Source: an uncultured Bacteroidales bacterium
GTDB lineage: Bacteria; Bacteroidota; Bacteroidia; Bacteroidales; Paludibacteraceae
Direction of reading: 5' to 3'
NCBI GenBank assembly: GCA_902798965.1
Contig: CADBYS010000027.1
Coordinates: forward strand, 1-43,795
DNA length: 43,795 nt
Below are positions 23,338-32,913 of the stretch, one piece after another. The first letter of the stretch is position 1, and each line of letters begins with the position of its first letter. Both the position numbers and the translations under genes were made by a program. The notes under the pieces were generated by a model. That model made no database searches. It was given only the letters and a program-made list of their open reading frames with translations, and was not told the origin of the DNA.

Positions 23338-23357
23338 GTCAGCCAATCTTGGCTGAC
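23338..23357. repeat. REP-like palindrome (type B) between Na/Pi gene and gcvP
   Basis: GTCAGCCAATCTTGGCTGAC: perfect 9-bp arms around TC. It shares the CCAATCTTGG centre with the type-A REPs near gdhA. Lacking a T tract, it is not a standard terminator. Confidence 0.6.
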
Positions 23358-26187: not shown

Positions 26188-26261
26188 GCTTTCGACTTTC
26201 GACTTTTGACTTTTGACTCATATGGCTTTCGACTTTCGACTTTTGACTTTCGACTCATATG
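26188..26261. repeat. Two 37-bp tandem copies made of heptamers, including the yitT start codon
   Basis: Units 26188-26224 and 26225-26261 match at 36 of 37 positions. Each consists of four TTTYGAC-type heptamers ending in CATATG. The second ATG (26259) begins yitT; the first (26222) opens an out-of-frame 15-codon mini-ORF. Confidence 0.85.
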
Positions 26262-26269
26262 GCTTTTAA
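26222..26269 (+). other. Upstream mini-ORF overlapping the yitT start
   Basis: The duplicated ATG at 26222 reads MAFDFRLLTFDSYGF and stops at 26267-26269, inside the yitT coding region in another frame. It copies the first residues of YitT (MAF). It could lower or couple yitT translation; whether it is translated is unknown. Confidence 0.4.
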
Positions 26270-27156: not shown

Positions 27157-27261
27157 ATCATCCGCCATCTTGGCGGCTCAAGTAGCATCAATAACAGCAT
27201 CCGCCAATCTTGGCGGCTCAAGTAGCATCAATAACAGCATCCGCCAATCTTGGCGGATTAA
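27157..27261. repeat. Three tandem type-A REP elements between yitT and gdhA
   Basis: Cores at 27162-27176 (one A missing), 27201-27216 and 27241-27256 read CCGCCAATCTTGGCGG. The unit repeats every 39-40 nt with the conserved link CTCAAGTAGCATCAATAACA. The last copy ends 16 nt before the gdhA ATG. Confidence 0.9.
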
Positions 27262-27272
27262 ATAACATAACT

Positions 27273-28649
27273 ATGGACAAACAAACCCAACAGTACATCG
27301 ACCAATTTATGGCCGACCTGATTAAGAAAAACCCCGGTGAGAAAGAGTTCCACCAGGCAGTTCGTGAAGTTGTAGAGAGCGTAGCTCCCATGATCATGGC
27401 GTATCCCTATCTGCGCGAGCAGAAGATCATGGAGCGCATCGTTGAACCCGAGCGTGTGATCATGTTCCGCGTACCTTGGATGGACGATCAGGGCGAGGTG
27501 CAGATCAACCGTGGCTTCCGTGTGCAGATGAATAGCGCCATCGGTCCGTACAAAGGCGGCATCCGTTACCACGAATCCGTTAACCTCAGTATAATGAAGT
27601 TCCTCGCCTTCGAGCAGACCTTCAAGAACGCGCTTACCACGCTGCCTATGGGCGGTGCCAAGGGCGGTTCGGACTTCTCGCCCCGCGGCAAGAGCGATGC
27701 CGAGGTGATGCGTTTCTGCCAGTCGTTTATGACCGAGCTCCAGCGCCACATCGGTGCTGATACCGACGTACCTGCCGGTGATATAGGCGTAGGCGGACGC
27801 GAGATAGGTTTCCTCTTTGGCCAGTACAAACGTCTCCGCGATGAGTTCACCGGCACATTGACCGGCAAAGGTCAGCTCTGGGGTGGTTCATTGATGCGCC
27901 CCGAGGCAACAGGTTACGGAGCATGTTACTTCGCTGAGGCGATGCTCGCTACCCGTGGCGAGTCGTTCGAGGGCAAGCGTGTCTGCATCTCCGGCGCAGG
28001 TAACGTGGCGCAATATGCCGCACAGAAAGCCATGCGTCTCGGTGCCAAGGTGCTCACCCTGAGCGATTCCGATGGCTTCATCTATGATCCCGAAGGACTG
28101 ACCGAGGAGAAGATGAACTACGTCTTTGAACTCAAGAACATCCGTCGTGGACGTATCAAGGAGTACGCACAACGCTTCCCGCAGGCACAATACTTCCCCG
28201 GCGAGCGTCCATGGCGTATCCCCTGCGATATCGCAATGCCTTGCGCTACGCAGAACGAGATCGAGAAAGCCGATGCTGAGAACCTCATCAACAACGGTTG
28301 CTTCTGCGTCACCGAAGGTGCCAACATGCCGAGTACCCCCGAAGCTATCGCCATCTTCCAAGGCGCCAAGATCCTCTACAGCCCGGGCAAAGCCAGCAAC
28401 GCTGGCGGTGTAGCCACATCAGGCCTTGAGATGACCCAGAACTCCATGCGTCTCAAATGGACTGCCGAGGAGGTTGACCAACGCCTCCGCACGATCATGG
28501 CCGATATCCACGCCGCTTGCCTCAAGTACGGCACAGAACAGGACAACCTCTGCCCTGATGGCACTCCCTACATCAATTACGTCCGTGGTGCCAACATTGC
28601 CGGCTTCATGAAAGTCGCCAACGCGATGGTCGAGCAAGGCTTAGTATAA
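27273..28649 (+). CDS. gdhA: NADP-type glutamate dehydrogenase
   Basis: A 458-residue hexameric-type glutamate dehydrogenase that makes glutamate from 2-oxoglutarate and ammonium, the main ammonia-assimilation route in many gut Bacteroidetes. Features: FRVPWMDDQGEVQINRGFRV, the catalytic PMGGAKGGSDF (Lys130), DVPAGDIGVGGREIGFLFGQ, the Rossmann CISGAGNVAQYAA and EGANMPSTPEA. Length and the ADTDVPAGDIG form fit the NADP-specific bacterial class; coenzyme is inferred. ATG at 27273 (MDKQTQQYID) is the family start; in-frame codons further up read through REP elements. REPs lie on both sides, so mRNA ends may be processed or protected by hairpins. Confidence 0.95.
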   Translation: MDKQTQQYIDQFMADLIKKNPGEKEFHQAVREVVESVAPMIMAYPYLREQKIMERIVEPERVIMFRVPWMDDQGEVQINRGFRVQMNSAIGPYKGGIRYHESVNLSIMKFLAFEQTFKNALTTLPMGGAKGGSDFSPRGKSDAEVMRFCQSFMTELQRHIGADTDVPAGDIGVGGREIGFLFGQYKRLRDEFTGTLTGKGQLWGGSLMRPEATGYGACYFAEAMLATRGESFEGKRVCISGAGNVAQYAAQKAMRLGAKVLTLSDSDGFIYDPEGLTEEKMNYVFELKNIRRGRIKEYAQRFPQAQYFPGERPWRIPCDIAMPCATQNEIEKADAENLINNGCFCVTEGANMPSTPEAIAIFQGAKILYSPGKASNAGGVATSGLEMTQNSMRLKWTAEEVDQRLRTIMADIHAACLKYGTEQDNLCPDGTPYINYVRGANIAGFMKVANAMVEQGLV

Positions 28650-28670
28650 TCAGGCTGGTGTAATTGTAAA

Positions 28671-28735
28671 GTATCCGCCAATCTTGGCGGATCAAATAGC
28701 ATCAGTAATAGTATCCGCCAATCTTGGCGGATCAA
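28671..28735. repeat. Two tandem type-A REP elements between gdhA and the RAYT gene
   Basis: Cores at 28675-28690 and 28715-28730, exactly 40 nt apart, each followed by ATCAA. The second ends 10 nt before the probable GTG start of the transposase and provides its AAGG ribosome-binding segment region. Confidence 0.9.
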
Positions 28736-28740
28736 GGCAA

Positions 28741-30006
28741 GTGACAACCGATTGGTATACATATTGGAAAGACCGCGGTGGCCTGTTGATTAGTGCTCAT
28801 CGTCCGCACAGTACCTGGAAGGATTACAGATCCCCCGGGATATACCTTATTACCATTGTCACGCACGCCCGCAAGCGCGTGTTCGGCGAGTTGAATAGGG
28901 ATATTCACAATCCGGGTATTGCATTGACCACTCTTGGTCAATCCGTGGAACAAGCCTGGTTCCAGACCTTCGATAAGCAATCCGCCCGTGACCGTCATAT
29001 CCGTTCACTTGGCTATCAAGTCATGCCGGATCATTTCCATGGTATCTTGCAGGTTGTTCACCCGATGGATGTTCCAATCGGCACTATCATCCGCGATTTC
29101 AAGGCCGTCTGTACCAAAGAGTACCGCATCCAGTATCCGCCAATCTTGGCGGATCCCATCGACTCCGCTTTCCTTGCCCGCTCCTCCCGCAAGCAGCGCG
29201 AGGATTATTACGCAGCTCATGGTATCGAGCCGCTCTTTGACGACAACTACGATGATACCATCTGTTACCGGAAGGGGCAGCTGGACAATATCATCAGCTA
29301 CGTCCAGGACAATCCCCGCCGTGCCATTATGCGTGCGCTCTATCCCGATCTCTTCCAACGCCGCCAGCATATCACTATTGACGGACAGGATTTTGCCGCT
29401 TACGGCAATCTCTTCTTGTTAAAGCGCCCGTGGAAAGAACAGGTTTTCTGTCACCGTTGGCTGATGAATGGTGACCGGCGCGATTACAACACCCGCTACG
29501 AAACCACCGACGCTTTCCTACAGGAACGCGCTGCATGGATTCAAGCTGCTAAGGATGGCGCTGTTCTGGTCACACCGGGTATCTCCAAAGGCGAGCAACA
29601 GCTGGTCAAGGATTGCATTGAACAAGCCCTCCCGCTTATTCATCTACAGAAAGAGCCGATTCGCGAGGGCTGGAATCCTGAACTCCGCCGTCATCAACTC
29701 TGCGAGATGGGTCAGTTACTTATCCTCTCGCCCTGGCAACTGACCGCGATGGATGCCGTCAACGGCGTTCCCGCAGTTTCTGACTATAGTCAGTTCCATA
29801 ACATGAACACCCTCGCTGCCCAAATATGCAGTAACAGCCTCCGCCCCACCATGCATAGTGCCCGCCCCGCACTGCATAATACGCCCCACAACAAAGCATC
29901 CGCCAATCTTGGCGGATCAAGTAACACCCCACAAGCAATTAAGCATCCGCCAATCTTGGCGGATCAAATGAATAACTCACCAGTTAATATGCATCCAAAC
30001 ACGTAA
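28741..30006 (+). CDS. REP-associated tyrosine transposase (RAYT/Y1_Tnp) with C-terminal extension
   Basis: A 421-residue protein if started at GTG 28741 after AAGG; the frame stays open upstream through REP DNA. Residues 30-200 are a Y1/HUH domain of the IS200/RAYT type: GIYLITIVTHARKRVFGEL, the metal-binding HFH in MPDHFHGIL (His98, His100), and ISYVQDNP with the likely nucleophile Tyr187. Classical RAYTs have 150-220 residues. Here residues 215-365 form an extra domain with GAVLVTPGISKGEQQLV, ALPLIHLQKEPI and CEMGQLLILSPW, reminiscent of a DprA-like Rossmann fold; this is inference. A type-A REP codes residues 133-138, and two more lie in a Pro/His/Asn-rich tail. RAYTs bind and nick REP hairpins. 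Confidence 0.85.
   Translation: MTTDWYTYWKDRGGLLISAHRPHSTWKDYRSPGIYLITIVTHARKRVFGELNRDIHNPGIALTTLGQSVEQAWFQTFDKQSARDRHIRSLGYQVMPDHFHGILQVVHPMDVPIGTIIRDFKAVCTKEYRIQYPPILADPIDSAFLARSSRKQREDYYAAHGIEPLFDDNYDDTICYRKGQLDNIISYVQDNPRRAIMRALYPDLFQRRQHITIDGQDFAAYGNLFLLKRPWKEQVFCHRWLMNGDRRDYNTRYETTDAFLQERAAWIQAAKDGAVLVTPGISKGEQQLVKDCIEQALPLIHLQKEPIREGWNPELRRHQLCEMGQLLILSPWQLTAMDAVNGVPAVSDYSQFHNMNTLAAQICSNSLRPTMHSARPALHNTPHNKASANLGGSSNTPQAIKHPPILADQMNNSPVNMHPNT
29137..29152. repeat. Type-A REP inside the RAYT coding sequence
   Basis: A full CCGCCAATCTTGGCGG core read in frame as PPILAD, between the HUH motif and the catalytic Tyr. Confidence 0.9.
29900..29962. repeat. Two type-A REPs in the 3' end of the RAYT gene
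   Basis: Cores at 29900-29915 and 29947-29962, 47 nt apart and in the same orientation, within a low-complexity C-terminal tail. Confidence 0.9.
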
Positions 30007-30093
30007 ACGACACGTAAACGACACGATAACGAGACGTAAACGACACGTAAACGGGTGCTGAGAACATGCTGAGGAAATGCTGAGGAAATGCTA
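29999..30093. repeat. Two successive 11-nt repeat arrays after the RAYT gene
   Basis: 29999-30053 holds five units close to ACACGTAAACG; the RAYT stop TAA lies in the first. 30061-30093 holds three units close to AGGAAATGCTG, with a related unit just before. Both have an exact 11-nt period but different sequence. Confidence 0.85.
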
Positions 30094-31896: not shown

Positions 31897-31952
31897 TCGA
31901 AATCTCGAAATATCGATGTGTCGAAATCTCGGAATATCGATATATCAAGGAA
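31897..31952. repeat. 8-nt repeat array upstream of the four-helix gene
   Basis: Seven consecutive octamers close to TCGAAATM, each beginning TCG or TCA. The same octamer forms the array after the gene. Confidence 0.85.
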
Positions 31953-32001: not shown

Positions 32002-32745
32002 ATGCTTAAAATACGGCGATTTGGATATTATTGGTTAAATACGTGGGTGGTGGCTAATGTCATTCAGTTGGCGACACAAGATTTTTGCAAGCGATTCTTG
32101 AACCTAAAGAATGATCCCTGTGGCAGACAATATGACCAAATGACTCAGGCTGCGCGTTCAGGTGTTGCAAATATCGCCGAGGGCAACTCGCGGCATTCAA
32201 CATCCAAAGAGACCGAAATGAAACTGACCGATGTGGCTCGTGCAAGTCTGGCAGAACTGATGAGCGATTATGCGAATTGGCTGATGCAACATGAGAAGAC
32301 ACCATGGTCAATCAATACTGCTGACTACAAGGATGTTTATGGTATTCAGTTTGATCTTCCGGAATATGCAGATGACGTGTTGCATGAGAGTTGTGAGCAT
32401 ATTTTGCGTCAGAAACGTAAGTTCGATAAGTGGCTTAACAGTGAAGATTCGATTGTTGTGGCGAATTGTTTGCTGATTCTATGCAATCGACTCATCCTTA
32501 TGCTCCAGAAGCACATAGAGACCTTGCTTGGTGACTTTACTGTTGAAGGCGGATTTACTGAGGCGTTGACTGCCGAACGGCTGCAACACCGTGCGCAGAA
32601 AAGCGCTGAGGAAAATGCTCCGATGTGTCCGGTGTGTGGCAAGCCGATGATCAAGCGTGTTGCGAAGAAGGGGATAAACTCAGGAAAAGAGTTCTGGAGT
32701 TGCAGCGGATATCCCGAATGCAATGGAACAAGAAAAATGGAATAG
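32002..32745 (+). CDS. Four-helix bundle protein with topoisomerase-type zinc ribbon
   Basis: A 247-residue cytoplasmic protein. The first part belongs to the four-helix family related to the 23S rRNA intervening-sequence protein (S23/IVP): QDFCKRFLNL, QMTQAARSGVANIAEGNSRH, STSKETEMKLTDVARASLAEL and the suffix-type second half. The C-terminus MCPVCGKPMIKRVAKKG with FWSCSGYPECNGT is a four-Cys zinc ribbon like those at the end of topoisomerase I. Nucleic-acid binding is likely, the exact role unknown. The gene is bracketed by two arrays of the same 8-nt repeat; the downstream one begins 3 nt after the stop. Such genes are often accessory and may have moved as a unit. Confidence 0.85.
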   Translation: MLKIRRFGYYWLNTWVVANVIQLATQDFCKRFLNLKNDPCGRQYDQMTQAARSGVANIAEGNSRHSTSKETEMKLTDVARASLAELMSDYANWLMQHEKTPWSINTADYKDVYGIQFDLPEYADDVLHESCEHILRQKRKFDKWLNSEDSIVVANCLLILCNRLILMLQKHIETLLGDFTVEGGFTEALTAERLQHRAQKSAEENAPMCPVCGKPMIKRVAKKGINSGKEFWSCSGYPECNGTRKME

Positions 32746-32747
32746 CC

Positions 32748-32898
32748 TCGATATATCGAAATGTCGATAACTCGAAATATCGAAAAGTTAAATCAATGAA
32801 TCCTCGAAATATCGAAATCTCGATAAATCGAAATATCGAAAATTCAATCAATAGACTCTCGAAATATCGATAAATCGAAATCTCGAAATATCGAAAAA
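32748..32898. repeat. 8-nt repeat array downstream of the four-helix gene
   Basis: About sixteen octamers of the type TCGAAATA, TCGAAATC or TCGATAAA in three blocks separated by AATCAAT-containing links. It fills nearly the whole gap to the next gene. Confidence 0.88.
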
Positions 32899-32913
32899 TA
32901 TTGACAAATAACA

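Follow-up and report, generated by a model that had tools for sequence, protein, structure and literature searches.

Palindromes around and within a Bacteroidales gene for a HUH transposase with a predicted DprA-like domain: a REP/RAYT-like locus

The stretch of DNA analysed here (the window) is contig C27 (CADBYS010000027.1; 43,795 nucleotides, nt) from the 2.85 Mb genome of an uncultured gut Bacteroidales bacterium of the Paludibacteraceae (GCA_902798965.1). It carries a two-domain transposase gene of the Y1/HUH type together with a family of palindromes, in an arrangement resembling the REPtron, in which repetitive extragenic palindromes (REPs) accompany a REP-associated tyrosine transposase (RAYT, or TnpA-REP). 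Palindrome copies occupy both the yitT-gdhA junction and the one separating gdhA from the transposase gene, and also occur inside the latter (Table 1). As the initial annotation stated, eight near-identical copies flank and enter the gene; they correspond to ATCCGCCAATCTTGGCGGAT, stand in one orientation at 27162-29964, and all but one, which has lost 1 nt, contain the 16-nt core exactly. Exact CCGCCAATCTTGGCGG is found seven times on the forward strand, at 27201, 27241, 28675, 28715, 29137, 29900 and 29947. When up to three mismatches are allowed, it has 18 matches on both strands of the window, whereas 100 shuffles give 0.41 on average. An extra in-gene palindrome, TTGACCACTCTTGGTCAA at 28924-28941, had been overlooked.

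The transposase probably starts at the GTG at 28741, because loci L012 and L017 have an ATG at the same residue, and would then count 421 amino acids. It follows from this start that the copies at 28673 and 28713 belong to the leader, while those at 29135, 29898 and 29945 are inside the frame. The predicted Y1 fold holds the HUH and Y-x-x-x-NP motifs typical of RAYT/TnpA-REP, here PDHFH and YVQDNP as first noted, with both histidines, the tyrosine and NP invariant in 69/69 aligned two-domain relatives. The gene is under purifying selection: among 8 ortholog pairs, each compared for both domains, the ratio of nonsynonymous to synonymous substitution rates (dN/dS) is 0.035-0.18 in 15 of 16 comparisons and 0.32 in one.

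Table 1. Palindromes, transposase gene and protein domains in the window (forward-strand positions)
Feature	Position	Strand	Remarks
Dispersed copy, related stem TCAGCCA(4)TGGCTGA	23339..23356	+	5 nt past stop, 18 nt before gcvP
Palindrome copy	27162..27176	+	1-nt deletion
Palindrome (REP-like hairpin)	27199..27218	+	yitT-gdhA junction
Palindrome	27239..27258	+	14 nt upstream of gdhA ATG (27273)
Palindrome	28673..28692	+	transposase leader, past gdhA stop
Palindrome	28713..28732	+	transposase leader, end 8 nt upstream of inferred GTG
Two-domain Y1/HUH transposase gene	28741..30006	+	421 amino acids from inferred GTG; stop 30004-30006; NF047646 match
HUH/Y1 catalytic domain	28741..29331	+	HFH 29032-29040, Tyr 29299-29301
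In-gene palindrome of second kind, TTGACCA(4)TGGTCAA	28924..28941	+	codes LTTLGQ
In-gene palindrome	29135..29154	+	codes YPPILADP; linker between HUH and Tyr motifs
Predicted DprA-like (SMF Rossmann) C-terminal domain	29332..29838	+	
In-frame tail	29839..30003	+	holds two palindromes, beyond conserved domain
Palindrome	29898..29917	+	within in-frame tail
Palindrome	29945..29964	+	within in-frame tail

The C-terminal domain is, according to the predicted models, a DprA Rossmann fold, and the DprA/SMF-type fold first proposed for it is thereby supported. This fold is common to DprA/SMF proteins (PF02481; Helicobacter pylori DprA with single-stranded DNA, PDB 4ljk) and to ShosA (8zva), which we take to be a DprA-like antitoxin; the likeness extends to the Rossmann pattern GN..LL, V..(S)R, S..IS..E, R..N. 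Unlike DprA/SMF, the domain is fused behind a HUH domain, and the match does not extend to where the family profile ends. The window domain itself has no Pfam match at E 1 and so stays below the PF02481 gathering cut-off of 29.6 bits; five standalone relatives score 24.2-27.6 bits. A genuine DprA, a protein known for single-stranded DNA binding and RecA loading (PMC9769556), is present in 29 of the 31 genomes of the set. Standalone short DprA-like proteins occur at loci L248-L254 in Bacteroidota (those five scanned fall just under the Pfam DprA cut-off, and L254 is an 84-amino-acid fragment), and L255:109-2133 encodes a protein of 675 amino acids with two DprA-type stretches (PF02481).

In addition to the source genome, 24 of 36 same-genus genomes have a match, one of them (G033) in the HUH part only. 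In a sample of 393 genomes of the order, 29 match the C-terminal profile. Seventeen of these matches are strong (E <1e-20), in frames of fused length and from 8 families by the tool's codes, the fused structure being judged here from frame length only; the other 12 are weak, 10 of them in frames of 73-164 amino acids. In the phylum sample, 10 of 395 genomes match, the source genome included. Of 119 named relatives, the 80 retained carry Bacteroidales titles, and most of them come from ruminant gut.

Many of the genes possess a hairpin of their own. By our own count, 43 of 69 loci have a palindrome that recurs two or more times no farther than 500 nt from the gene, versus 5 of 345 shuffles. Stems in the linker, between the HUH and Tyr motifs, track the protein tree (FastTree, with long-branch warnings), with 14 changes over 66 rows and 12 states versus 37-47 when labels were shuffled 100 times. 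At 32 of 66 loci the linker stem is identical to a flanking stem (permuted loci: mean 6.0, maximum 13). The source genome holds seven two-domain genes, several with their own hairpin; the stem of one paralog, L044, has seven exact sites and nine more with two mismatches. The stems are paralog-specific.

Hairpins also lie within the reading frames. Between the HUH and Tyr motifs, 97 of 140 genes have a hairpin of 7 base pairs or more, and 20 synonymous codon shuffles yield 11-20; the C-terminal domain, as a control, gives 26 versus 11-27. A second site, coding LTxLGQ, carries a hairpin in 24 cases, versus 1-6 after synonymous shuffling. The computation shows that the in-gene hairpins exceed what the protein sequence explains. 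It is conceivable, although we lean against it, that they are passive REP insertions in a flexible loop, functionless for the carrier gene, as proposed for TnpA-REP subclass 2.4 and thus with a precedent in print (PMC6006769). Linker length, which varies from 56 to 152 amino acids among 65 loci of the genus set, agrees with this idea, as do the copies that the window protein has in its C-terminal tail, past the conserved domain. It fits less well that 19 of 24 orthologs have the linker hairpin intact and in the same position (59-86% identity among those compared; the second hairpin is intact in 15), and that among 264 windows the linker site has the lowest synonymous entropy (0.31; the second site is third lowest with 0.39, column mean 0.82). 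Moreover, ortholog L146 diverges from the other orthologs in both arms of the second site, with two amino acids replaced, yet keeps the stem.

Had the palindrome been confined to these 3 kb, the initial annotation would have given up its reading, but copies are present on other contigs. The whole genome has 9 occurrences of the exact core. The stem TCNGCCA(4)TGGCNGA, which includes compensated stems of the ATCAGCC/GGCTGAT type, has 41 genome sites and its reversed control 0; the hairpins flanking the gene thus recur elsewhere in the genome, as in RAYT/TnpA-REP systems. Of the 35 sites outside the locus 34 could be placed, by our own count as follows: 17 between co-directional genes, 13 in open reading frames and 4 elsewhere. 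Twelve of the 17 junction copies are at most 11 nt past the upstream stop, and the median distance to the next start is 18 nt. Such positions would suit RNA hairpins of leaders and operon junctions acting in translation or mRNA stability, which the transposase uses or through which it autoregulates via mRNA, with no DNA movement. We regard this as unlikely, since REPs too are reported close behind stop codons (PMC3733652), the stems are paralog-specific, and the copy at the gcvP junction is absent in genome G007, though the upstream gene ends there as in the window (compared by eye). Among 37 same-genus genomes, palindrome counts are higher where a close homolog is present (7 genomes, 4-59) than where it is not (30 genomes, 0-22; p = 7e-4). 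This split is of our own choosing: G024 (38% identity, E 3e-60, in a frame with stops) was placed with the 30, and G001 (an 86% fragment located where a contig ends) with the 7. In 24 genomes of other genera in the order, two have one palindrome site each. Elsewhere in the genome the TTGACCA(4)TGGTCAA palindrome has three further copies, of which two form a pair in one intergenic stretch; its intergenic copies at L278 and L280 around 1501 represent a second dispersed hairpin family of this genome. The same-genus genomes G015, G021, G034 and G035 may hold orphan repeat populations.

An ordinary active insertion sequence of the IS200/IS605 type, as the Y1 fold and motifs might suggest, is very improbable in view of the purifying selection, of other genome copies that are at most 66% identical to the window protein with no near-identical copies with defined ends seen, of a search for relatives that found none in phages or viral contigs and one weak match in plasmids, and of gdhA as the preceding gene for 4 of 24 orthologs (the loci of some of the 24 being cut short).

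RAYT/TnpA-REP systems with their REPtron (E. coli RAYT, PDB 4er8; NF047646) share with this locus the HUH and Y-x-x-x-NP motifs, the fold, flanking and dispersed hairpins, and one hairpin family per gene. The REPtron reading given at the outset is supported. The window protein differs from them by its length of about 421 amino acids with a DprA-like domain, and its locus by perfect palindromes repeated in direct orientation; its NF047646 score is 36.7 bits, below the cut-off of 80. According to Quentin et al. (2018, PMC6006769), in-frame REPs, generally between the HuH and Y motifs, are unique to subclass 2.4, which occurs in Bacteroidetes, has no extension after the core, a median of 194 amino acids and a GT[AG]G foot; large C-terminal domains are tied there to subclasses without REPs. 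The window gene has the in-frame hairpin of subclass 2.4 but carries a domain after the core, and the family described here joins in-frame hairpins with a large C-terminal, DprA-like domain. "DprA" has no occurrence in the main text of that paper, and no published description of a subtype with a DprA fusion was found in a literature search that reached few subscription papers. Because of this combination, and of the divergent hairpin foot and guide contact discussed below, we set the family apart from the described subclasses and therefore call it REP/RAYT-like in its workings.

We favour, with moderate confidence, a domesticated REP/RAYT-like system in which the HUH half nicks the cognate hairpin and the fused DprA-like half handles the strand. 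The computed basis consists of two predicted folds, intact catalytic motifs, purifying selection, dispersed copies, paralog-specific stems and in-gene hairpins; from it we infer hairpin cleavage, single-strand binding by the second domain, a RecA link, the route of copy spread and the reason for in-gene hairpins. The transposase would be a single-stranded DNA nickase/ligase of the Y1 (TnpA/IS200) superfamily, recognising a paralog-specific perfect hairpin. Its HUH domain would cut single-stranded DNA beside this hairpin, and the single strand exposed by the cut would be held by the DprA-like domain, which may pass it to homologous recombination. Such a process could seed or exchange hairpin copies both at gene junctions and within the transposase gene, whose linker would tolerate them and which would keep them as recognition sites. 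A bolder and rather doubtful extension is a one-protein nick-and-recombine machine, in which HUH cuts at the hairpin, the DprA half loads the strand for RecA exchange, the hairpins spread and are homogenised, and the in-frame hairpin is a self-tag binding the enzyme to its repeat family.

Several observations weigh against the domesticated REP/RAYT-like system. The PF02481 match breaks off around position 165 of 212 in the relatives scanned, and the DprA domain may therefore lack its end. Among 120 copies, taken from the 30 loci where a stem is present three times or more, 0 have the GT[AG]G foot (3 of 120 show its complement at the opposite foot), and the guide-contact W position, which we assigned by inference from the distance to Tyr, is F in 56 of 69 proteins and W in 11; recognition must therefore differ from that of E. 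coli RAYT. No palindrome recurs near the gene at 26 of 69 loci, and six of the seven exact L044 stem sites are at the L044 locus itself. The linker hairpin is missing from 43 of 140 genes and present in only 17 of 51 rows of the distant loci L166-L221. The second-lowest entropy window, from codon 7 on, has no palindrome that we could find, and gene conversion is another possible source of low synonymous variation. The 13 gcvP-type copies in open reading frames (mechanically called), our choice in splitting the genomes, and the 18-22 palindromes in four same-genus genomes without a close homolog (G015, G021, G034 and G035) belong here as well.

Further repeats occur in the window. Two different 11-nt tandem repeats occupy 29999-30092, at the transposase stop codon and directly after it, and a CTTTCGA-type tandem repeat (26188-26266) lies immediately upstream of yitT. 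The protein encoded at 32002-32745 combines a helical bundle resembling 23S rRNA-IVP (E 4e-6, under the cut-off) with a topoisomerase-type zinc ribbon, and its gene has TCGAAATA tandem repeats on both sides (31897-31946 and 32747-32899).

The way in which REPs spread is described as poorly understood (PMC8266576). A natural fusion of a nickase with a DprA-type domain offers a testable candidate for the post-cleavage step, and the seven two-domain genes of a single genome are a ready specificity panel. That hairpins in coding sequence are conserved at the nucleic-acid level suggests that some in-gene REPs are more than passive passengers.
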